Source of the DNA: Paenibacillus massiliensis subsp. panacisoli DSM 21345
GTDB lineage: Bacteria > Bacillota > Bacilli > Paenibacillales > Paenibacillaceae
Reading direction: 5' to 3'
Assembly (NCBI RefSeq): GCF_000426545.1
Contig: NZ_AUFO01000001.1
Coordinates: 558,001 to 622,000, forward strand
DNA: 64,000 nt
Part shown: in pieces, positions 3,694 through 52,567 of the stretch
Layout of the letters: every line of letters begins with the position of its first letter
Numbering within the stretch: the stretch's first letter is position 1
Made by a program: the position numbers and the translations under genes
The notes under the pieces: model-generated
Seen by the model: only the letters and a program-made list of their open reading frames with translations
Databases searched by the model: none
What the model was told of the DNA's origin: nothing

Positions 3694-3875
3694 GCAGTGG
3701 GATGTGTAAAAAAGCTAACAAGCACGGGGTGGGTGTAGGAACACATTTATAAGACTGGCTTGCATTTTTTTCAGTCTAGTGTTAGTTTAGATATAATTTC
3801 TTGAACAATTCATTTTGTTCTGAGATGGCAGTTCAACAGAATTGTCGTAATTTGCTTGTACAACTACATGTAAGT

Positions 3876-4038
3876 TTCCTTCGGGGTTGGGTGAAATTCC
3901 CTACCGGCGGTGATGGCTCTTACGCTTACGAAGCGTGATTAGCCTTAGTCCGTGACCCGGATGCTGTCTGCAAGACAGCAGAAGGTGGACCTGGTGCAAT
4001 TCCGGGACCGACAGTATAGTCTGGATGGGAGAAGGAGA
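3876..4038 (+). ncRNA. FMN riboswitch (RFN element)
   Basis: The conserved RFN blocks are present in order: TTCGGGGTTGGGTGAAATTC, CCTACCGGCGGTGATGGC, a variable hairpin (TTACGCTTACGAAGCGTGA), TTAGTCCGTGACCCGG, a second variable hairpin (GCTGTCTGCAAGACAGC), then GGTGGACCTGGTGCAATTCC and GGGACCGACAGTATAGTCTG, closing with GGATGGGAGAAGGA. This aptamer binds FMN and shuts off riboflavin synthesis genes. The downstream gene is ribE, consistent with that role. Confidence 0.96.
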
Positions 4039-4257
4039 TCGGACACAGAATAGCTCTATGTACATCTGCTGTATAAGACAGTGGTTGTACGCAGGTATGT
4101 TTCTTACATACCTACAGATGCTATGCTGTGCTTCATTTCACAAAGTAGTCTACTCATTTTCGAATGAGCAGGGCTTATTTAGGCAACGCTATTCCTGCTG
4201 GGATGGTCTGTTGACCTATGGATAATGTGAATGATTGAAAATGATCTGATATCTCTC
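4039..4257 (+). other. Long linker between FMN aptamer and terminator
   Basis: About 220 bases with no supported gene. An open frame at 4025-4225 overlaps the aptamer and has no credible protein features. A perfect 8-bp hairpin (4093-4100 with 4106-4113, AGGTATGT/ACATACCT) is the only clear structure. The segment may contain the antiterminator, or may be residue of a lost gene such as ribD. Confidence 0.5.
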
Positions 4258-16039: not shown

Positions 16040-17632
16040 CTATTCCAGTACGATTTCCTGAGCCATGTTCAGGTCTTCCAGTGTGGTCAGCTGTACCAGT
16101 ACGTCCTTCGGAACAGCCTTGTCAACCGTCAGAATCATGATAGCTTCTCCGCCGATTACTTTACGACCTACTTGCATGGCGGCGATGTTCACTTCATTTT
16201 GCCCCAGAAGGGTACCAACACGACCGATAATCCCTGGTTTATCGTTGTGGGAGATCAGAATTTGGTGCTTCTCTGGTGATACATCCACCGGGAATTGATC
16301 CAGACGGACGATGCGCTCTCCATAGCCGTTCAAGCGTGTTCCTGCGACCTTGTGCTCCTCACCGTTCTGGCTCTTGAGCGTTACGGTAATCAGGTTCGTG
16401 AAGCCTTTGGTCGTTGTGGATTTCGATACCACATAATTCACATCTCTCGATTTAGCCAGGTGCATGGAATTCACGATATTAACATCATTGCCGAGGTGGC
16501 GGCGCAGCACGCCCTTAATAATATAGCGCGTCAGTGGCTGTGTATCACTCTCGGATAGTTCACCGGCATAGTCCACTTGAATCTCACTGACGGGCCCATT
16601 AATAATTTGAGCTGCCATACTACCAAGCTTCTCTCCAAGCGTGAAATAAGGCTGCAGCTTGCTCATGACACTAGGTGCAACTGGCGGCATGTTGACGGCG
16701 TTCTTGAACGGCTCATCGCGCAGGATGTGAAGCACCTGCTCCGATACGTCAATGGCTACATTTTCTTGAGCTTCCACGGTGGATGCTCCCAGGTGAGGCG
16801 TAACGATAATGTTTGGATGCCCCAAGAAAGGATGATCCGGTGCTGGTGGCTCAGATTCGAAGACGTCAAATGCAGCTCCAGCCACAATGCCTTCGTCAAT
16901 AGCCTCTACAAGTGCCATTTCGTCAACTACACCACCACGAGCACAGTTGATAATGCGCATGCCTTTTTTCATAACCTCGAATTGCGGACGGGAGATCATG
17001 TGGCGCGTCTCTGGCGTAAGTGGTGTATGCACCGTCATGAAGTCAGCATGCTTGACGATTTCATCCACACTTGCTAGCTTCACTCCAAGTTTTTCGGCAC
17101 GCTCTTCTGTCAGGAATGGATCATAGCCGAGAATGTTCATGCCAAAGGCTTTGGCCCGTTTGGCGACTTCACTTCCGATTCGTCCCATGCCGAGTACACC
17201 CAACGTTTTGTTGCGGAGCTCAACGCCGAGGAAGCTCTTGCGGTCCCAAGTTCCGTTGACTGTCTTGGCGTATGCTTGCGGGATATGACGGGCAAGAGCC
17301 ATCATCATAGCGAACGCATGCTCACATGTTGTAATGGTATTGCCGTCTGGTGCATTGATGACGATAATCCCGCGCTGTGTAGCGGCATCAAGATCAATGT
17401 TGTCTACGCCCACGCCAGCGCGTCCAATGACCTTCAAATTGGTACCGGCGGCCATGATGCGCTCCGTTACACGTGTCTGGCTTCTCACAAGCAGGGCATC
17501 GTAGTTGCCAATAATCGCAACCAGCTCATCCTCGCTGAGTCCTGTGTTTTTGTCGACGGTGACGTCACTTGCGTCCATGAGCTGTTGAATTCCAAGATCG
17601 CTGATGGGGTCGGAAACTAATACTTTGTACAT
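16040..17632 (-). CDS. serA: D-3-phosphoglycerate dehydrogenase
   Basis: Oxidises 3-phosphoglycerate to 3-phosphohydroxypyruvate, the first step of serine synthesis. A 530-residue long-form enzyme: substrate/NAD domains with GVLGMGRIGSEVA, catalytic NCARGGVVDE and TPHLGAST, an intervening ASB domain, and a C-terminal ACT domain (NDKPGIIGRVGTLLGQ, then NEVNIAAMQVGR) for likely serine feedback. AGAGGAGGATTCAC precedes the start. It is monocistronic on the minus strand behind a T-box leader. Confidence 0.96.
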   Translation of the reverse strand: MYKVLVSDPISDLGIQQLMDASDVTVDKNTGLSEDELVAIIGNYDALLVRSQTRVTERIMAAGTNLKVIGRAGVGVDNIDLDAATQRGIIVINAPDGNTITTCEHAFAMMMALARHIPQAYAKTVNGTWDRKSFLGVELRNKTLGVLGMGRIGSEVAKRAKAFGMNILGYDPFLTEERAEKLGVKLASVDEIVKHADFMTVHTPLTPETRHMISRPQFEVMKKGMRIINCARGGVVDEMALVEAIDEGIVAGAAFDVFESEPPAPDHPFLGHPNIIVTPHLGASTVEAQENVAIDVSEQVLHILRDEPFKNAVNMPPVAPSVMSKLQPYFTLGEKLGSMAAQIINGPVSEIQVDYAGELSESDTQPLTRYIIKGVLRRHLGNDVNIVNSMHLAKSRDVNYVVSKSTTTKGFTNLITVTLKSQNGEEHKVAGTRLNGYGERIVRLDQFPVDVSPEKHQILISHNDKPGIIGRVGTLLGQNEVNIAAMQVGRKVIGGEAIMILTVDKAVPKDVLVQLTTLEDLNMAQEIVLE

Positions 17633-17774: not shown

Positions 17775-17823
17775 AAAAAAGCCCCCGATCCGCATACTAT
17801 CTCCATAGTAAGGGACGAGAGCT
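17775..17823 (-). terminator. T-box terminator
   Basis: On the minus strand an imperfect long hairpin starting at AGCTCTCGTCCC and ending GATCGGGGGC is followed by TTTTTT. It is the alternative fold to the T-box antiterminator. Confidence 0.8.
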
Positions 17824-18045
17824 GTCGTGGTACCACCCTAATTCGCAATTATTTCGCAATAACTGCCTCAACGGTCAATTGACCTGAAAGATAACGGATT
17901 TCAACCGATTGCGCCTACTGGATATACAAAATCCACATTCGGGGCAATAACTCAGGAGCGCTAAAGACCATACTGATTGCCGTCGGCTTTCACCAAATAC
18001 CGACTCTCTGAGGGACAATGTCAGTGTCTTCTCTCCATCGATGTC
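17775..18045 (-). ncRNA. T-box riboswitch upstream of serA
   Basis: On the minus strand the T-box core AGGGTGGTACCACGAC (17840-17825) is preceded by a Stem I with AGAGAGTCGGTATTTGGTG and GAAAGCCGAC, and followed by a terminator. Uncharged tRNA binding would favour the antiterminator and serA transcription. A candidate specifier codon AGC (17962-17960), in CTTTAGCGCTCC, would read serine, fitting the gene; the specifier is assigned by eye. Confidence 0.92.
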
Positions 18046-18205
18046 TGTCATATACTCTTAATTTTTTCATAATGTATCATGCCTGACATGGAGATGTCAA
18101 TAGGGCATGAGGAGTTTAAATCTAGTGAGTCTACAGGGGGCTAAATGTGCTAATATAAGGAGTCTGGTGCCTTGAATCAAGCGGTAAAATTGGCTATGAT
18201 GCTTA

Positions 18206-18826: not shown

Positions 18827-19290
18827 ATCAGGAGTTGAGCAGAGTAGAGCGGAACAAAATACAGCGTAGTCAGCGCTTCGATCGGTTCAAGCAGTTATGG
18901 GGCAAGCCGCGTCCGCGACATCTGGCAGCACGGCAAAGACTGCCTTTACAAGAAGCTGCGGGTGAAGCTGCATTGCAGCCTTTGACCTTGCATGAAGCGC
19001 CTGTTGTAGGCGTATCGCTCAAAGACTCGTCTGTGCTAGATATACATAATAAACAACCGATGACTCGCATGGAGCGTTCACGGACTGATGAACAGGAGGG
19101 AAGCGAGGAATTGCCGGATGCCTACCCTTCGCGTGCGGAGCTATTCCCTTCCAGAAGGCTTCGCGTTAGCAAATGGTTTCTTAATTTCCTGAGCACACTG
19201 TTCATGCTAATCACAGCAGTGCTGGTATGGTGGGGAATCCAAGGAGCACCTCCCGTAAAAACCTTGCTGCCAGAGATGTTCGGGGAATAG
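18823..19290 (+). CDS. Hypothetical tail-anchored protein
   Basis: A 155-residue protein with a basic, low-complexity N-terminal region (RVERNKIQRSQRFDRFKQLW) and a single hydrophobic segment near the C-terminus (FLNFLSTLFMLITAVLVWWG, about residues 122-141), ending PEMFGE. It has no signal peptide, so it is probably held in the membrane by its tail with the bulk inside the cell. The start overlaps the stop of the CPBP protease gene, suggesting a shared job, but I recognise no family. Confidence 0.7.
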   Translation: MNQELSRVERNKIQRSQRFDRFKQLWGKPRPRHLAARQRLPLQEAAGEAALQPLTLHEAPVVGVSLKDSSVLDIHNKQPMTRMERSRTDEQEGSEELPDAYPSRAELFPSRRLRVSKWFLNFLSTLFMLITAVLVWWGIQGAPPVKTLLPEMFGE

Positions 19291-40066: not shown

Positions 40067-40297
40067 ATGGAGAACACTACGCCCAACAACAATGAATATG
40101 TCGTCATCAAGGCGAAAAGCAACGGCTGTCAGGTCTTCGGCTTGACACGGGGTCAGGATACAAGGCTACATCATTCCGAGAAGCTGGATAAGGGTGAAAT
40201 TCTGATCGTCCAGTTCACCGAGCATACCTCGGCGATTAAGATTCGCGGTAAGGCTGTCGTGCTGACTAAGCACGGTGAAGTAGATACTGAGGATTAA
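40067..40297 (+). CDS. mtrB: Trp RNA-binding attenuation protein (TRAP)
   Basis: A 76-residue protein forming an 11-mer ring that, with bound tryptophan, wraps RNA carrying repeated GAG/UAG triplets and so terminates trp transcription. [30 protein letters not shown] and [17 protein letters not shown] match the family; the RNA-contacting Lys/Arg (Lys42, Lys58, Arg60 by position) are present. GGGAGGAATC precedes the ATG. A matching target array occurs at 50.34-50.63 kb, upstream of trpE. Confidence 0.96.
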
Positions 40298-41988: not shown

Positions 41989-42726
41989 GTGAATACAGTG
42001 GGTTCAAGTCAGACCAAGCCGAAAGAACAATTTGTTCATGAGGTCTTCGAGAGTATTGCGGGTAAGTACGATATTATGAATGATGTCCTGAGTTTTCGCC
42101 GACACAAGGCTTGGCGCAAATTCACGATGAAGAAAATGGAGGTCAGGCCAGGGGACACGGCTCTAGACCTGTGCTGCGGCACCTGTGACTGGACATTGTC
42201 ACTGGCGTATGCAAGTGAAACAGGGCACATCCATGGACTGGACTTCAGCCACAATATGTTGGATGTAGGCAGACGAAAGATTAAGGAAGCATCGCGTGAA
42301 CAGCAGATTACGCTTGTGCAGGGGAACGCCATGGAGCTTCCTTTTGCAGATAATTCCTTTGACCATATCACGATTGGGTTCGGGCTGCGTAATGTACCTG
42401 ATCTTCATCAGGTGCTTCGTGAGATGCATCGGGTAGTCAAGCCCGGTGGACAAGTGGTATGTCTGGAGCTGTCCAAGCCGACTTGGCAGCCATTCAAGGG
42501 ACTGTATTATTTTTATTTCCAGAAGGTATTACCTCGTTTGGCCAAATGGTTCGCGAAAAGATACGAGCAGTACAAGTGGCTTCCTGATTCTTTGGCACTG
42601 TTCCCCGGAAGGGAAGAGCTTGCCGGCATCTTCCGCGAGATCGGATTGAAAGAGGTCAAAGCCTATCCGTTAACTGGAGGAATTGCGGCACTGCATATCG
42701 GAATTAAGGAGAGTCAGCATGTTTAA
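41989..42726 (+). CDS. menG: Demethylmenaquinone methyltransferase
   Basis: SAM-dependent enzyme for the last step of menaquinone synthesis. A 245-residue UbiE/MenG protein: IAGKYDIMNDVLSFRRHKAW, SAM motif LDLCCGTCDWTL, NAMELPFADNSFDHITIGFG and the C-terminal GGIAALHIGIK. GTG 41989 begins one base after the hepS stop; GTG 41998 is the alternative. Overlaps the next gene by 8 bases. Confidence 0.95.
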   Translation: MNTVGSSQTKPKEQFVHEVFESIAGKYDIMNDVLSFRRHKAWRKFTMKKMEVRPGDTALDLCCGTCDWTLSLAYASETGHIHGLDFSHNMLDVGRRKIKEASREQQITLVQGNAMELPFADNSFDHITIGFGLRNVPDLHQVLREMHRVVKPGGQVVCLELSKPTWQPFKGLYYFYFQKVLPRLAKWFAKRYEQYKWLPDSLALFPGREELAGIFREIGLKEVKAYPLTGGIAALHIGIKESQHV

Positions 42727-43591
42727 AAAAGTCAAAATTTTCTCTGAAATGATCAAGATCGAGCATACAGTATTTGCTTTGCCTTTTGCATTTATGGGAG
42801 CGATTCTGGGCTCCTTCGTAGTAAGCAACCAACTGCCTACCTGGGCGCAGATCGGCTGGATCTTACTCGCAATGTTCGGTGCTCGAAGCGCAGCGTTCGG
42901 CTTCAATCGGATGATTGATCGCTTTATTGATGCCAAGAATCCGCGTACGGCTGGTAGAGCGATTCCAGCAGGACTCTTGAAGTCCTCCGAGGTCCTGATC
43001 TTTACACTGATCTGCCTTGCTTTGTTGCTATGGGCATCGTACCAGTTGAGCCCACTGGCCTTCAAGCTGTTCCCTATTGCGCTGTTCATGCTGGTATTCT
43101 ACTCCTACACGAAGCGCTTTACCTGGCTCTGTCACGTCGTACTGGGTCTGACCATTGGACTGGCGCCGCTTGGCGGCTGGGTTGCTGTAACCGGGCAGGT
43201 TGATTGGGCTGCATTTGTTTTTTATCTGACCATTGCTTGCTGGACGGCAGGCTTTGATATCATATACGCTTGTCAGGATATTGAGTTCGATCAGCGTGAA
43301 GGTGTGTATTCGATACCTGCACGATTTGGTGTTGCTCGTTCGCTTCATATTGCTCGGGCATTTCATATCGTAACGGCGATTGGCTTTGTGGTGCTGTTCT
43401 TCGCAGCCAATCTGAGCTGGTGGTATCTGGCGGGCATGATTCTATCTTACATTATCCTGTTCTACGAGCATTACATTGTGACACCTAAAGACTTGAGCAG
43501 ACTGCAGACGGCGTTCTTCACTATGAATGGTGCGCTGAGTATTGTTGTGTTTGTCTTTACCTTCCTGGATTTAGTGGTGCGACAATTATGA
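42719..43591 (+). CDS. UbiA-family prenyltransferase
   Basis: A 290-residue membrane enzyme that attaches a polyprenyl chain to an aromatic acid. Its Asp-rich motifs are NRMIDRFIDAKNPRT (near residue 62) and DIIYACQDIEFDQREG (near residue 178). About eight transmembrane helices. In futalosine-pathway organisms the equivalent enzyme (MqnP) prenylates a 1,4-dihydroxy-6-naphthoate-type precursor. This role is supported by the adjacent mqnA, ubiX and hepT. AAGGAGAGTCAGC precedes ATG 42719. Confidence 0.9.
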   Translation: MFKKVKIFSEMIKIEHTVFALPFAFMGAILGSFVVSNQLPTWAQIGWILLAMFGARSAAFGFNRMIDRFIDAKNPRTAGRAIPAGLLKSSEVLIFTLICLALLLWASYQLSPLAFKLFPIALFMLVFYSYTKRFTWLCHVVLGLTIGLAPLGGWVAVTGQVDWAAFVFYLTIACWTAGFDIIYACQDIEFDQREGVYSIPARFGVARSLHIARAFHIVTAIGFVVLFFAANLSWWYLAGMILSYIILFYEHYIVTPKDLSRLQTAFFTMNGALSIVVFVFTFLDLVVRQL

Positions 43592-44214
43592 TGGCTGCAG
43601 CAGCATACAAGAGAATCGTTGTGGGTATTACAGGTGCAAGCGGGAGTATTTATGGCGTCAGACTAATCGAGACGCTGCTTGATGCTGGCATCGAGGTGCA
43701 CCTGGTGGTCTCTAATGCCGGCTGGCGCGTATTGAAGGAAGAACTTGGCTGGAATGTGACTGACCGGGAAGGAACACTGAACGACATGTTCGGAGACCGT
43801 CCCGGTTCTCTTATATATCATCCGGTAACGGATATTGGTGCTTCGGTAGCTAGTGGCTCCTTCCTGGTGGATGCGATGATTGTCATGCCTTGCTCCATGG
43901 GCACGTTGTCTGCGGTTGCTCACGGGACCTCAGATAACCTGATGGCCAGGGCGGCTGACGTTATGATCAAGGAGGGGAGACCGCTTGTGCTGGTACCTCG
44001 CGAAACTCCGCTTCATGCGATACACCTGGAGAATATGCTGAAGCTGGCACAGCTTGGCGTTAAGATCATTCCGGCCATGCCGGCTTTTTATTTTCAACCA
44101 CGTAGCATAGAAGATCTTGTCCACTTCCTTGTCGGAAAGGTGCTGGACAGTCTTCGCATAGAGCATAAGCTGTATACGAGATGGGGTGAGCCAGATGACC
44201 AAGGACAATCATGA
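43588..44214 (+). CDS. ubiX: Flavin prenyltransferase, UbiX family
   Basis: Makes the prenylated FMN cofactor for UbiD-type decarboxylases. A 208-residue flavoprotein with GITGASGSIYGVRLIETL at the N-terminus, MPCSMGTLSAVAHGTSDNL and VPRETPLHAIHLENMLKL. ATG 43588 overlaps the preceding stop. In this operon the cofactor would serve the decarboxylation in the futalosine menaquinone route, but no ubiD is in the window. Confidence 0.93.
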   Translation: MMAAAAYKRIVVGITGASGSIYGVRLIETLLDAGIEVHLVVSNAGWRVLKEELGWNVTDREGTLNDMFGDRPGSLIYHPVTDIGASVASGSFLVDAMIVMPCSMGTLSAVAHGTSDNLMARAADVMIKEGRPLVLVPRETPLHAIHLENMLKLAQLGVKIIPAMPAFYFQPRSIEDLVHFLVGKVLDSLRIEHKLYTRWGEPDDQGQS

Positions 44215-45061
44215 ACCTCTGTTCATCGGTAAAATTCAATATACGAATGCATGGCCAGTGTTCCATCATTTTCATCCAGAGCAACTTCGGACATCGGCTG
44301 AGCTAGTAACGAAGGTTCCGGCAGTGCTGAACCGCAGAATTACAGAGGGTCTACTTGATATGAGCGCTATGTCTTCTTTTGCTTACGCATCTGCGGCGGA
44401 GCATCTGTTGATTCTTCCACAATTATCAGTCAGCGTGGACGGAGCGGTGAAATCCATTTTGCTCTTCTCACGCAAGCCGCTGGAGGAGATCCGCAACGGA
44501 AGGATAGCACTGACGAATACATCAGCAACCTCGATTAATTTGTTGAAGATCCTCATGAGCAGGTATTTGGGTGGGAAGCCGGAATATTTTGACTGTGAGC
44601 CAGATTTGGATACAATGATGAGACAGGCTGATGCGGCATTGTTAATCGGAGATCATGCGATTCGTGCTTCCTGGGCCAACGAGGACTATGTCGTGACTGA
44701 CCTTGGCGCTCTATGGAAGGAGTGGACGGGACACAGCATGACCTTTGCTGTATGGGCTGTCCGACGGGAAGTCGCCGAGCATAGACCTGAGGCTGTCGCG
44801 GAGATCGTGGAGGCCTTTCATGCCAGCAAGCGTCAAAGTCTGGAAAATCTGACTCCGGTCATAGAGCAGGCCATGAAGGACATTGGCGGAACAGAAACAT
44901 ACTGGAAGCAATATTTCACCAATCTATGTTATGATTTTGGCAAGAGGGAACAAAGTGGACTTGAGCTGTATCTACGTTATGCACATGAGATGGGTCTGCT
45001 TGCGCAAGAGATTAACCTGGAATTATGGAATGACAATATGCTGATACGGGTGAAAGAATGA
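44195..45061 (+). CDS. mqnA: Chorismate dehydratase MqnA
   Basis: First enzyme of the futalosine menaquinone pathway, making 3-enolpyruvyl benzoate from chorismate. A 288-residue protein with a periplasmic-binding-like fold; FIGKIQYTNAWPVFHHF at the N-terminus, LLDMSAMSSFAYA, LTNTSATSINLLK and ADAALLIGDHAI are family features. I choose ATG 44195, as GGGGTGAG precedes it; GTG 44186 overlaps that site. The other steps (mqnB-D) lie elsewhere. Confidence 0.92.
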   Translation: MTKDNHEPLFIGKIQYTNAWPVFHHFHPEQLRTSAELVTKVPAVLNRRITEGLLDMSAMSSFAYASAAEHLLILPQLSVSVDGAVKSILLFSRKPLEEIRNGRIALTNTSATSINLLKILMSRYLGGKPEYFDCEPDLDTMMRQADAALLIGDHAIRASWANEDYVVTDLGALWKEWTGHSMTFAVWAVRREVAEHRPEAVAEIVEAFHASKRQSLENLTPVIEQAMKDIGGTETYWKQYFTNLCYDFGKREQSGLELYLRYAHEMGLLAQEINLELWNDNMLIRVKE

Positions 45062-48827: not shown

Positions 48828-49925
48828 ATGCAGACCATTACAGTTCAATTGGATCAAGAACGCACGTATCCTATCTATATCGGTAGGGGGCTACTACCAG
48901 AGGCCGGCACTTATTTCCGCCAACATGGTATATCGAGCAAGAGCCCGCTACTCATTGTAGCTGATGATAATACTGCTCCGAGATATTTGAAGATACTGGA
49001 GAACAGCCTGCGGGAGCAGGGCTACATGACAGTTGCCTCGATCGTGAAGGCTGGAGAGACATCCAAGTCATTGACGGTATATGAGCAAGTCATCACTACT
49101 GCACTGGAGGCTGGACTGAATCGGAGCTCTGCTGTCATTGCACTGGGCGGCGGAGTAGTAGGCGATCTGGCGGGCTTTGTGGCTGCGAGCTTCATGCGTG
49201 GCATCAAGTTCATCCAGGTACCGACGACCATTCTCGCGCACGATAGCAGTGTAGGGGGCAAGGTAGGCATTAACCATCCTTTGGCCAAAAATATGATTGG
49301 CGCTTTCCATCAGCCCGAGCTTGTATTGTATGACGTGGACACCTTGCTGACATTGCCTCCACGTGAGGTGTCAGCGGGACTCTCAGAGATGCTGAAGCAC
49401 GGTCTGATCTGGGATGAAGCCTTCGCATACTGGTGTCTTGAGCATGCCGAAGAGCTATTGGCACTGCAGCCCGATGCGCTTGAATATGGCTTGGGCCAAG
49501 GCTGTGCAGTCAAGGCAGCGGTTGTCTCTCAGGATGAGCGAGAAGAGGGACTGCGTGCCATTCTGAATTTGGGACATACGATCGGTCATGCCATTGAAGC
49601 AATTGCTGGCTACGGAGAATTTTTGCACGGAGAGGCCATTTCAATCGGGATGGTAGGTTCAGCTCTGCTCGGCGTACGTCTGGGAGCTGACCCGTCCCTC
49701 GCTGTGGAGACACGGAGCATGCTGAAGGCACTGAAGCTGCCCACTGTACTGCCCAAGCATCTGGATACAGAGCAGCTGCTGGCCGCCATGATGCATGACA
49801 AGAAGTTCAAAGAGGGAGTAGTCACTTTCGTAGTGCCACGGGCGATAGGTCGTGTGGATATTGTGAAGGATATTTCCATAGAGATGGTCAGAGAGGTCAT
49901 CGAGCAGCTTAGAGAGGAGGAGTAA
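48828..49925 (+). CDS. aroB: 3-dehydroquinate synthase
   Basis: Converts DAHP to 3-dehydroquinate, NAD- and metal-dependent. A 365-residue protein with ALGGGVVGDLAGFVAA, QVPTTILAHDSSVGGKVGIN, and metal His in LNLGHTIGHAIE and GEAISIGMV. Starts one base after aroC. Length usual for the family. Confidence 0.96.
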   Translation: MQTITVQLDQERTYPIYIGRGLLPEAGTYFRQHGISSKSPLLIVADDNTAPRYLKILENSLREQGYMTVASIVKAGETSKSLTVYEQVITTALEAGLNRSSAVIALGGGVVGDLAGFVAASFMRGIKFIQVPTTILAHDSSVGGKVGINHPLAKNMIGAFHQPELVLYDVDTLLTLPPREVSAGLSEMLKHGLIWDEAFAYWCLEHAEELLALQPDALEYGLGQGCAVKAAVVSQDEREEGLRAILNLGHTIGHAIEAIAGYGEFLHGEAISIGMVGSALLGVRLGADPSLAVETRSMLKALKLPTVLPKHLDTEQLLAAMMHDKKFKEGVVTFVVPRAIGRVDIVKDISIEMVREVIEQLREEE

Positions 49926-49927
49926 GC

Positions 49928-50308
49928 GTGTATAATCGAGGAATTCGGGGAGCAACGACCGTAAGCTCGAACAATGCGGACGAGATTCTCGAAGCGACCG
50001 CAGAGCTATTGAATGATATTGTATCCCGGAATCAGATTCAGCCGGAGCAGATCTGCCATGTGTGGATCACTATGACACAGGATCTGGATGCCGCTTTTCC
50101 CGCCAAGGCCATTCGGGAGCTGGAGGGCTGGGAGCTCGTCCCGCTGATGTGCGCTGTTGAGATACCAGTGCAAGGAAGTCTAGAGCGTTGTATCCGCTTT
50201 ATGGTTCAGATCAATACGAACAAGACGCAGCGTGAGATCAACCATGTGTATTTACGCGGCGCGAAGGTCCTGCGACCAGACTTGTCGTCCTCCAAGAGCA
50301 GCTCATGA
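49928..50308 (+). CDS. aroH: Chorismate mutase, AroH type
   Basis: Rearranges chorismate to prephenate. A 126-residue AroH-class trimer subunit: NRGIRGATTVSSNNADEIL at the N-terminus, catalytic Glu/Arg in PLMCAVEIPVQGSLERCIR and VQINT. GAGGAGGAGTAAGC overlaps the aroB end. The trp leader follows directly, so read-through from the aro promoter must pass the trp attenuator. Confidence 0.95.
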   Translation: MYNRGIRGATTVSSNNADEILEATAELLNDIVSRNQIQPEQICHVWITMTQDLDAAFPAKAIRELEGWELVPLMCAVEIPVQGSLERCIRFMVQINTNKTQREINHVYLRGAKVLRPDLSSSKSSS

Positions 50309-50317
50309 ATTTGGGAG

Positions 50318-50347
50318 TTGCCAAGGAGTGTCATTTTACGCTATAGT
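50318..50347 (+). promoter_or_regulatory. Candidate trp promoter
   Basis: TTGCCA, 18 bases, TATAGT, overlapping the first triplet; would start a leader of about 665 bases. Confidence 0.5.
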
Positions 50348-50500
50348 GTACCTATAGTTCAGATGAGTTCAGCACGAGATGAGTATGTAATGCAAGCTAG
50401 GCAGGATTGTTAGGTTATTAGATAAGTAGATGAGTGCTAGCGCGGAAGCGCCTAGTATAGATGAGTGAAAGTTAGAGTGCCCAAGTGAAGCTGGTTATAG
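50344..50500 (+). promoter_or_regulatory. Upstream NAG cluster (possible TRAP sites)
   Basis: About 16 GAG/TAG triplets (for example at 50365, 50376, 50381, 50398, 50411, 50419, 50427, 50432, 50438, 50453, 50458, 50463, 50473) with uneven spacing of 2-20 bases. TRAP prefers 2-3 base spacers, so affinity may be lower than in the core cluster. Confidence 0.55.
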
Positions 50501-50569
50501 TGATATGATGAACTATTGGTCAGATCACGACAGTCTAATTTGGCTAAGAATAATTCCATATATTGTGGA

Positions 50570-50630
50570 TAGCTAAGTTGAGTGAAGTAGAGTCAGTTGA
50601 GTCGAGATGAGAAGAGTTGAGATAAGCTAG
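50570..50630 (+). promoter_or_regulatory. Core TRAP-binding site
   Basis: Triplets TAG 50570, GAG 50580, TAG 50588, CAG 50594, then five GAG at exact 5-base steps (50599, 50604, 50609, 50614, 50619), AAG 50624 and TAG 50628: eleven triplets in all. The 2-base spacers match the known TRAP preference. Wrapping of the TRAP 11-mer here in the presence of tryptophan would alter leader folding. Confidence 0.85.
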
Positions 50631-50740
50631 GTCCATATTTTTCGCAAAAGTCTGTCTACGAGATTAATACAGCAGTATCCTGTTGTGTGTTTGAACGGGA
50701 TCGGTGTAAGACGAATAGACTTGCGAAGGGTTCTAAAGGC

Positions 50741-50854
50741 ATGAGTTCACCGAGGATTATAGAGTACTACGTGTTCAGCGAAGCTGGGCCATTCTATAGT
50801 CTCTGGAGCTATATAGCCTCGAGCAGTCTTGCTTCATTAGAATGGCGTCGATAG
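50741..50854 (+). CDS. Possible trp leader peptide
   Basis: A 37-residue frame inside the trp leader with two Trp codons (50804, 50843) and Tyr-Tyr. GAAGGG lies about ten bases before the ATG. The second Trp codon lies in the 3' arm of the 50788/50838 hairpin, so a stalled ribosome could disrupt it. Trp content could be chance; TRAP control is the expected mechanism. Speculative. Confidence 0.25.
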   Translation: MSSPRIIEYYVFSEAGPFYSLWSYIASSSLASLEWRR

Positions 50855-50922
50855 ATGTTACTCTAATGTCAAGTATCGGACTACCCAAAATATGGCGGCA
50901 ATCGACATCCATTAACGACAAC

Positions 50923-50952
50923 AGTCTCTACCTTACGGTAGGGACTTTTTTA
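50923..50952 (+). terminator. trp leader attenuator terminator
   Basis: AGTCTCTACC and GGTAGGGACT pair over 10 bp around TTAC, followed by TTTTTT. CTCTAC in its 5' arm can alternatively pair with GTAGAG at 50587-50592 in the core TRAP site, a plausible antiterminator. Confidence 0.9.
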
Positions 50953-51019: not shown

Positions 51020-52567
51020 ATGCTGACCCCTAATGTAGAGCTTGTAATTTCGATGGCCGGTCAATACAATCTGATCCCGGTACATAAAAAGGTGCTGGCT
51101 GACATGGAGACACCCATTCGGATTTTCCGCCGTTATGCGGAGCAGGAGCATGCTTTTCTGCTGGAAAGTGTGGAGGGTGGGGCGCAATGGGCTCGCTATT
51201 CCTTCATTGGCAAAGACCCTTTTCTGATGATCTCCGGCAAAAAAGGACGGCTCGTCATCAACAGCAACGGGAAGGAGCAAGAGGTGCACGGCAAGCCGAT
51301 TGAGGCGCTCAAGACGCTGCTGCGGAAATACCGCAGCCCCAAGCTGGATGAGATGCCGCCGTTCACTGGAGGGGCGATCGGATTCTTCGGTTATGATCTC
51401 CTGCAATATTATGAGAAGCTACCCGCTCATGCGGTGGATGACCTCAATATGGATGATATTCGCTTCATGTTCTGTGATCAAATCATTGTATTTGACCATG
51501 TCAAGCAGCAGATGCTGCTGGTAGGCAATGTACATGTCCCAGAAGGTGCAACGGATGATGATATTCGCCGGGCGTATGCCGCTGTAGAGCGGAAGCTGGA
51601 AGCGACGGCCATGCAGCTGCGGCAGCCTGTGAAGGAGGACCCGTTCAGTGCAGCTACAGTACCTGGTGATGTAGAGCTGGGAACGATCCACTCCAATGTG
51701 ACGAAGGAGCAATTTATAGGGAATGTGGAGCGGGCCAAGGAATACATTCGCGCTGGGGACATCTTCCAGGTGGTATTGTCCCAACGCTTCCATATTGATA
51801 CCGAGGTATCGCCGTTGCATGTCTACCGCGTACTGAGGACAATGAATCCTTCTCCGTATATGTACTACTTGAAAATGGGCGAGGAAATCATCGTCGGTAC
51901 ATCTCCAGAGGCGTTGGTCAAGGTCGATCATGGCCGCGTAGAGACGAGACCCATTGCAGGCACGAGACCACGCGGGAGCACAGAGGCAGAGGATCAGGCT
52001 TTGGCAGAGGAGCTGCTGAAGGACGAGAAGGAACGGGCAGAGCATCTGATGCTGGTGGACCTTGGGCGGAATGATCTGGGCAGAGTGTCTGAATTCGGCA
52101 CGGTCACCTGTGACACATTCATGGAGATTGAGCGGTACTCACACGTTATGCATATTGTCTCCAACGTATCGGGACAGCTTGCCAAGGACAAGGATTTCTT
52201 TGATGCTTTCCTGTCCTGCCTGCCAGCTGGAACCGTCTCGGGCGCTCCGAAGCTGAGAGCGATGGAGATTATCGGGGAGCTTGAGCGTGAGTCCAGAGGA
52301 GCCTATGCTGGAGCGATCGGCTATCTGGGCTTCACGGGAAATATGGATACTTGTATTACGATCCGGACAATTGTATTCCGCAAGGGCAGAGCCTACGTAC
52401 AGGCTGGAGCGGGGATTGTATGGGACTCTGTGGCAGAGAGTGAATACATGGAGACCATCAATAAGGCCAAGGCGATGCTGAAGGCGATTCGAACGGCTGA
52501 AGAAATGTTCCCACAGCCTGCTAAATTGGGAGATGTGCTGAATCAGGATTACTTGTTCGCTCCTTGA
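51020..52567 (+). CDS. trpE: Anthranilate synthase component I
   Basis: Makes anthranilate from chorismate and ammonia. A 515-residue chorismate-binding enzyme with TETPIRIFRR-like METPIRIFRRYAE, FLLESVEGG, SPYMYYLKMGEEIIVGTSPE, ETRPIAGTRPRG, and LVDLGRNDLGRV. ATG 51020 follows GAAGGAAGGAAGCG. First gene of trpEDCFBA. The glutaminase partner trpG is not here; in B. subtilis it is in the folate operon. Confidence 0.97.
   Translation: MLTPNVELVISMAGQYNLIPVHKKVLADMETPIRIFRRYAEQEHAFLLESVEGGAQWARYSFIGKDPFLMISGKKGRLVINSNGKEQEVHGKPIEALKTLLRKYRSPKLDEMPPFTGGAIGFFGYDLLQYYEKLPAHAVDDLNMDDIRFMFCDQIIVFDHVKQQMLLVGNVHVPEGATDDDIRRAYAAVERKLEATAMQLRQPVKEDPFSAATVPGDVELGTIHSNVTKEQFIGNVERAKEYIRAGDIFQVVLSQRFHIDTEVSPLHVYRVLRTMNPSPYMYYLKMGEEIIVGTSPEALVKVDHGRVETRPIAGTRPRGSTEAEDQALAEELLKDEKERAEHLMLVDLGRNDLGRVSEFGTVTCDTFMEIERYSHVMHIVSNVSGQLAKDKDFFDAFLSCLPAGTVSGAPKLRAMEIIGELERESRGAYAGAIGYLGFTGNMDTCITIRTIVFRKGRAYVQAGAGIVWDSVAESEYMETINKAKAMLKAIRTAEEMFPQPAKLGDVLNQDYLFAP

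Follow-up and report, generated by a model that had tools for sequence, protein, structure and literature searches.

The TRAP array of the Bacillus subtilis trp leader sits close before the attenuator. In the passages of PMC3913778 that describe this trpEDCFBA system, the MtrB ring binds an array of KAG triplets, bases of which are also used by an antiterminator, and a terminator precedes trpE; the leader is 203 nt long and the attenuator extends from +108 to +133. The same passages argue that TRAP acts directly on RNA polymerase in Bacillus, whose attenuator follows the ring at a short distance. In TRAP-bearing Bacilli outside the order of Paenibacillus (20 loci near the top of the list, with G197 passed over, drawn from the 37 of 42 genomes tried in which TrpE was matched) a KAG array is likewise followed by a terminator before trpE, and the gap between them is 3-49 nt in 18 of the 19 leaders in which a terminator was called; the exceptions are L182, where the gap is 117 nt, and L171, in which no terminator was called. 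We found no description of a Paenibacillus trp leader in the open-access literature.

Here we consider such a leader in a window of 64,000 nt, the whole stretch of DNA that was analysed, from a Paenibacillus close to P. massiliensis, its TrpE being 99% identical to that of P. massiliensis DSM 16942 (L002). Compared with B. subtilis, this leader has 292 nt between array and terminator, occupied by a predicted folded domain, and a predicted antiterminator that pairs most of the array. The joint best explanation of its organisation, to which we assign a probability of roughly 0.75, is that of a detached TRAP attenuator which also carries the remnant of a duplicated promoter and array. The features on which the argument turns are given below in window coordinates.

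40067..40297, + strand: mtrB, gene for the TRAP subunit of 76 aa (open reading frame; PF02081 at 5e-39, and at 5.7e-38 in the genome search)
49928..50308, + strand: aroH, type I chorismate mutase, upstream of the leader (PF07736)
50318..50347, + strand: trp promoter, TTGCCA-18-TATAGT (from the hexamers; predicted start near 50354)
50355..50383, + strand: probably what is left of a first TRAP array, TAG CAG GAG CAG GAG GAG (within the profile match 50312-50384, E 1.7e-5, promoter included)
50384..50500, + strand: further GAG/TAG triplets in a lineage-specific stretch, with a run of five NAG at 50453-50477
50540..50564, + strand: possible decayed second promoter copy, TTGGCT-13-TATATT (from alignment; the spacing in relatives is 17-18)
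50570..50630, + strand: predicted TRAP array, here called the core, 12-13 NAG (NAG chain; profile match 50552-50643, E 2.8e-9)
50587..50592, + strand: GUAGAG antiterminator strand, predicted from the fold to pair with the terminator 5' arm
50633..50895, + strand: self-folding spacer, closed in the predicted fold by 50633-50640 : 50888-50895 (CCAUAUUU : AAAUAUGG)
50896..50931, + strand: anti-array, predicted from the fold to pair with 50587-50631, its last 6 nt, CUCUAC, lying within the terminator 5' arm
50923..50952, + strand: intrinsic terminator, consisting of a hairpin (50923-50946; -14.5 kcal/mol by itself, -15.1 kcal/mol with one more flanking base) and a U tract
51020..52567, + strand: trpE, the first trp gene

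The gene order, in which some names are our reading of open reading frames, runs from mtrB through a heptaprenyl diphosphate synthase subunit, UbiA, a flavoprotein, menaquinone-biosynthesis genes and a polyprenyl synthetase to ndk, cheR, aroF, aroB and aroH, after which come the leader, trpE and the other trp genes; mtrB lies about 10 kb upstream of the core array in the same gene cluster. Within this order the genes for UbiA, the flavoprotein and menaquinone biosynthesis (PF02621), at 42683-45061, sit between two prenyl-diphosphate-synthase genes 3' of mtrB. Elsewhere in the window a T-box leader (17808-18050, - strand; Rfam, 97.8 bits) stands upstream of a serA-like gene (16040-17632, - strand), and a serine T-box has been published for P. 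polymyxa (PMC8002221). An FMN riboswitch (Rfam, 104.3 bits) occupies 3873-4040 on the + strand.

In an alignment of MtrB with B. subtilis numbering, which is anchored on the EKL motif, the RNA-contact residues E36, K37, D39, K56 and R58 are kept, and the one departure is at residue 32, which is Leu instead of Phe; among the 15 aligned proteins Phe occupies this position in 12 and Leu in three, that of the window, that of P. massiliensis (L155) and L156. The list of contact residues is that of Table 3 of PMC3184956, passages of which name Lys15 and Thr72 in the protein of Paenibacillus sp. and relate them to rings that are probably 12-mers. The protein encoded in the window carries Lys15, Asp71 and Thr72, which together with the array of 12-13 NAG it has in common with the 12-mer TRAP system of B. 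halodurans, and its ring is probably a 12-mer too; the 12-13 triplets of the array would be compatible with a ring of this size. Of 149 genomes of the order, 146 carry a TRAP gene. A search for anti-TRAP at E 0.001 found none in this genome, and within the genus eight of 75 genomes match, six of them over the cut-off.

The core consists of TAG AAG GAG AAG GAG CAG GAG GAG GAG GAG GAG AAG TAG, a chain of 13 NAG (nine GAG/TAG, three AAG and one CAG) in steps of about 5 nt, which answers to the array of about 11 (G/U)AG triplets at 2-3-nt spacing expected of a TRAP-regulated leader. Its chain score of 8.35 is the highest in the 64-kb window, where the best unrelated tile reaches 4.0, and exceeds the maximum of 7.30 obtained from 1000 shuffles of 50561-50640. 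An exact five-triplet KAGNN pattern has the core as its only match in the 6.3-Mb genome. When up to one mismatch was allowed in a genome search for other TRAP targets, 13 matches were returned, fewer than the 28 of the backward control. A second TRAP-like site at 18832-18854 was rejected, lying inside the start of a coding open reading frame and near background (E 0.074). A preliminary description of this DNA had pointed to five GAG at exact 5-nt steps and to a TRAP site some 290 nt from the terminator; the five are indeed found within the core chain, at 50599, 50604, 50609, 50614 and 50619, the distance from the core end to the terminator stem (50923-50946) is 292 nt, and both the best chain of the window and the nearby mtrB argue that TRAP would bind the core.

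Comparison with P. massiliensis provides a view of what is held constant, on the understanding that these are two close genomes and the numbers small. No base is changed in the promoter stretch 50301-50353 (0 of 53), in the core at 50570-50627 (0 of 58) or in the anti-array stretch 50895-50931 (0 of 37), and at 50630 a substitution has cost P. massiliensis the final TAG of its core. The stretch 50354-50480 has three substitutions in 127 nt, among them one by which the TAG at 50427 is CAG in P. massiliensis, and the spacer has eight changes in 267 nt and one indel. In the neighbouring genes, 55 of 1095 bases of aroB differ from P. massiliensis DSM 16942, and the changed four-fold sites number 18 of 246 in trpE, 31 of 189 in aroB and none of 59 in aroH.

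How common a distant array may be was assessed in the best 80 of 282 TrpE relatives (78 loci from Paenibacillus, with L068 from Bacillus sp. and L081 from Fontibacillus), which together with the window make 81 leaders. Each of the 81 yielded both a KAG chain and a terminator, and the gap from the array to the terminator arm ranges from 127 to 435 nt with a median of 185 nt; arrays are short, their best chain numbering 5-8 triplets, in L030, L038, L050, L053, L058, L060, L067 and L079. In 78 leaders the terminator arm has the CTCTAC form, and in three it is of another type. These three, L058, L067 and L079 (P. wulumuqiensis, P. dauci and P. nuruki), and also L152 from a related genus, have another terminator (GCCTTCATGCGT...ACGCGTGAAGGC) and an array that is looser. 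Leaders of the P. taichungensis/xylanexedens group (L015, L019, L021, L025 and L051) have about 200 nt extra between terminator and trpE, measuring 711-728 nt against about 525 nt in close relatives. Twenty other genera of the order, out of the 36 in which TrpE was matched (35 when that of the window is not counted), were represented by one leader apiece; here the gap is 47-428 nt, a range that includes unconvincing terminator calls in L137 (0.0 kcal/mol) and L141 (-1.2 kcal/mol), a weak one in L138 (-6.5 kcal/mol) and arrays of 4-6 triplets in L133, L134, L135, L141 and L148. An array that adjoins its terminator, as is usual outside the order but not defining for the family, is not what is found here, at 292 nt, and the gap in the other Bacilli is far shorter. 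Since the long gap is shared across the order, it would represent a common architecture, and the earlier impression that the remote core is an oddity of one leader gives way to a rule in the examined leaders; the detached TRAP attenuator looks general in the order of Paenibacillus.

In this leader the terminator lies, as required for attenuation, between the array and trpE. With one flanking base included, its -15.1 kcal/mol compares with a median of -12.8 kcal/mol (range -21.6 to -0.6) over the 81 leaders and with the -12.6 kcal/mol of the B. subtilis trp terminator, whereas the attenuator of B. halodurans is weak, at -8.4 kcal/mol, according to passages of PMC3913778, and that of the window, at about -15 kcal/mol, is both stronger and remote. 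The similarity in strength to B. subtilis means that distance, and not strength, would be the difference between the two systems.

What the array might do at such a distance is suggested by folding. From the array to just before the terminator 3' arm, the predicted structure is a long imperfect helix, 50587-50631 : 50896-50931, which leaves the first 17 nt of the array outside and pairs about three quarters of it, and by which array bases would form an antiterminator exclusive with the terminator. The proposed pairing of GTAGAG at 50587-50592 with CTCTAC in the terminator arm (50926-50931) reappears in this fold, as the outer end of the longer helix. L003, L004 and L027 have similar fold plans, as does the RNAalifold consensus of 14 polymyxa-group leaders (alignment A4, 14 of 21 polymyxa-group stretches), in which the majority of the antiterminator pairs are invariant. 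When folding runs from array to arm, 71 of the 81 leaders pair the terminator 5' arm with the array at a probability above 0.5, and the value here is 0.99; from the predicted start to 50936 it is 0.95 over 6 nt, and from the predicted start 0.65-0.66 over 10 nt. The value is not above 0.5 in the other ten, and is at most 0.11 in six of them (L076, L080, L045, L050, L058 and L030), where for L030 and L050 the array as delimited omits a GTAGAG just upstream. In the other genera, all 16 loci with a CTCT[AG]C terminator among the 20 fetched exceed 0.5.

The intervening spacer appears to contribute to this pairing. On shuffling it, the mean arm:array probability falls from 0.81 to 0.54, the real spacer giving the higher value in 70 of 81 leaders, and in this leader it falls from 0.99 to 0.17; several loci from the other genera keep a high value with shuffled spacers. 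The spacers are themselves more stable than shuffled ones, with a mean z of -1.83 over the 81 (below -1 in 64 and below -2 in 31) and an energy z of -3.06 in this leader. A further reading of this domain, as a sensor in its own right (a riboswitch, a T-box or a leader peptide) adding a second signal, could draw on this stability and on spacer lengths of up to 435 nt. Yet no T-box or other Rfam leader was matched in this leader, the best E of 4.2 being at chance level, nor does it contain an SD-led open reading frame of at least eight codons; a small SD-led frame with Trp-Trp occurs in one of the 81 spacers, that of L020, probably by chance. The spacers moreover vary widely among groups while the array and the terminator-proximal part persist, and we consider a sensor very improbable.

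GAG-rich arrays and their anti-arrays are complementary in kind, so that some pairing between them is automatic, and for this reason native partners were compared with swapped ones. In 45 non-redundant leaders of 78 (L058, L067 and L079, with their different terminator, being left out), the native pairs average -25.3 kcal/mol and the swapped pairs -22.4 kcal/mol, a difference equalled in none of 10000 permutations, and without the last 9 nt the values are -20.6 and -18.7 kcal/mol, again with 0 of 10000. Within group II (23 leaders) 5 (50-nt anti-array) and 106 of 10000 permutations did as well, outside group II (22 leaders) 0 (50-nt anti-array) and 2, and outside group II without the amylolyticus group (16 leaders) 10 and 11. 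The G+C contents of array and anti-array are uncorrelated (r 0.07). The anti-array of this leader reaches -26.6 kcal/mol with its own array against -16.5 kcal/mol (sd 3.4) with the 44 other arrays, and has a z of -2.57 against its own shuffled versions. Seen from the other side, this array pairs nearly equally with other anti-arrays (mean -23.7 kcal/mol), its own ranking 14th of 45; group I arrays pair with group II anti-arrays as well as with their own, and across the set native anti-arrays have only a modest advantage over shuffled ones (mean z -1.00, with 37 of 45 below 0). RNAalifold returned no pairs in the 28-leader alignment A3 (28 of the 32 leaders with the GAGTATAG motif, L031, L065, L076 and L080 being left out, of which L076 and L080 pair arm and array poorly), nor on its joined array and anti-array columns, and the pairwise swap tests were relied on instead.

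Taken with the predicted folds, these comparisons make it probable that the leader is a TRAP-controlled transcription attenuator of the detached kind. In the absence of tryptophan, the nascent array (50587-50631 of 50570-50630) would pair with the anti-array at 50896-50931 in an antiterminator helix spanning a spacer already folded on itself; this helix would hold the terminator 5' arm, and RNA polymerase would read on into trpE. With tryptophan, a TRAP ring, probably a 12-mer, would wrap the array, the anti-array would lose its partner and the terminator at 50923-50946 would form. With the whole terminator present and no TRAP, the terminator is favoured at equilibrium (0.98-1.0 when folded from the start, 0.83 from 50565), so that the switch would have to be kinetic, and we infer that readthrough depends on folding order, the antiterminator being complete before the 3' arm exists. 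Holding the core unpaired reduces arm:core pairing to zero by construction; as long as the 3' arm is missing, other partners are then predicted for the 5' arm (0.64-0.77). The equilibrium preference would also be in keeping with a TRAP that acted on RNA polymerase just 3' of the core, as has been proposed for B. subtilis, the distal hairpin being a separate terminator. In favour of such an action, B. subtilis TRAP, according to passages of PMC3913778, can terminate transcription without the attenuator if an A+U-rich stretch follows its site, and a short U run does lie 3' of the core here (CATATTTTTC). However, the A+T content of the first 30 nt behind the arrays is no more than moderate (16.6 of 30 on average, and 18 here), and a contact with polymerase has no need of a native fit between array and anti-array that beats the swapped one; we regard it as unlikely. 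The best reading, as the folding models suggest, is that TRAP sequesters the antiterminator strand, just as it does in Bacillus, only at long range.

The part of the leader upstream of the core poses a separate question. The promoter hexamers place the likely transcription start near 50354, and similar hexamers with 17-18 nt spacing occur in 73 of the 81 leaders, in 62 of which the array begins at most 15 nt from the -10 box. Roughly 16 GAG/TAG triplets had been reported at 50344-50500, and the count is 17, of which one (50344) falls inside the -10 box TATAGT and two (50473 and 50475) overlap. This density (17 KAG in 157 nt) ties for first among 3194 tiles on both strands, the other tile with 17, at 49801, being mostly within aroB. 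For its own dinucleotide content the count is not exceptional (17 against a shuffle mean of 18.4), and neither is the periodicity, which 16.5% of 1000 dinucleotide shuffles equal. Two runs are array-like: at 50355-50383 there are six NAG, including two CAG, with a chain score of 3.8, and at 50453-50477 a run of five NAG scores 3.45. The triplets outside them are irregular. The first run sits directly 3' of the promoter, where most relatives carry their array. The 284 nt upstream of the core have a match in two of 75 genomes of the genus, this one and P. massiliensis.

A profile of promoter and array elements built from 44 relatives matches this leader twice, at 50312-50384 and, through CCATAT, at 50552-50643, and the best of 200 shuffles gave an E of 0.019; the first match includes the true promoter, which contributes part of its score. 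The two matches use model ranges 4-78 and 27-109, which overlap at 27-78, and such an overlap points to duplication, plain insertion not being expected to produce it. The leader also contains direct repeats, one of 12 nt at offset 228 and AAGCTAGG at offset 230. When the two copies are aligned directly, promoter plus array is matched by one of 500 shuffles, a longer stretch by 71, the promoter stretches alone by 51 and the remaining parts by 59 and 89, the last being that beyond 50401; against relatives, the first copy is equalled by 5 to 57 of 300 shuffles in five comparisons. Outside promoter and array the two units are no longer alike. We think it rather probable that the upstream cluster is the remnant of a tandem duplication of promoter and array in the P. 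massiliensis lineage, in which the upstream copy would have kept a working promoter while its array decayed, and the downstream copy would have kept the array and lost the promoter; this is the most likely history that can be inferred, and the suggestion in the preliminary description of a decayed site is supported.

The same stretch might instead be an unrelated GAG/TAG-rich insertion between promoter and array, with no duplicate involved. Seven leaders (L047, L056, L066, L072, L074, L077 and L078) carry 49-137 nt between -10 box and array, so that such inserts may have arisen repeatedly, and the similarity beyond 50401 is not above that of shuffles. Against this stand the overlap of the two profile matches, the array-like triplets that begin directly behind an intact promoter, as in relatives, and the promoter-like remnant, though weak, that precedes the core; an insertion is possible but the less probable account. 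It had also been proposed that two TRAP rings could bind; with one per cluster, the upstream ring would tune the core through cooperative loading, TRAP capture or protection of the 5' end. The 17 KAG of a tile tied as densest in the window, and the six NAG at 5-6-nt steps right at the predicted 5' end with five more at 50453-50477, are what one would cite for it. The periodicity is nevertheless unremarkable for this composition, two of the six 5' triplets are CAG, the stretch is confined to two of 75 genomes, one of its TAG triplets (50427) is replaced by CAG in P. massiliensis, and with the upstream cluster held unpaired arm:core pairing is still 0.77-0.99, against 0.95 unconstrained. The analysis yielded no positive evidence for a second ring, which we consider quite unlikely. 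Still more doubtful is the combined proposal of an order-wide, long-range TRAP attenuation working purely by release of an anti-array as far as hundreds of nucleotides downstream, without touching polymerase, together with a split duplicate in the P. massiliensis lineage whose 5' partial site would still load a second ring at the transcript end.

With the detached attenuator and the duplicated remnant as the preferred reading, this is an established mechanism with a new arrangement of its parts. Sequence and folding assign it to TRAP attenuation through mtrB, the array, the predicted mutually exclusive structures and the terminator. So far as the open-access literature shows, both the detached form, with its anti-array and folded spacer, and the split duplicate would be new. 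Leaders in which the terminator is far from the ring would allow RNA refolding and action on polymerase to be told apart. If the reading is true, the order would provide an example, widespread among its members, of a protein-controlled antiterminator acting across a folded spacer of about 50-430 nt, and the lineage of P. massiliensis a possible case in which duplicated leader modules divide promoter and binding site between the copies.
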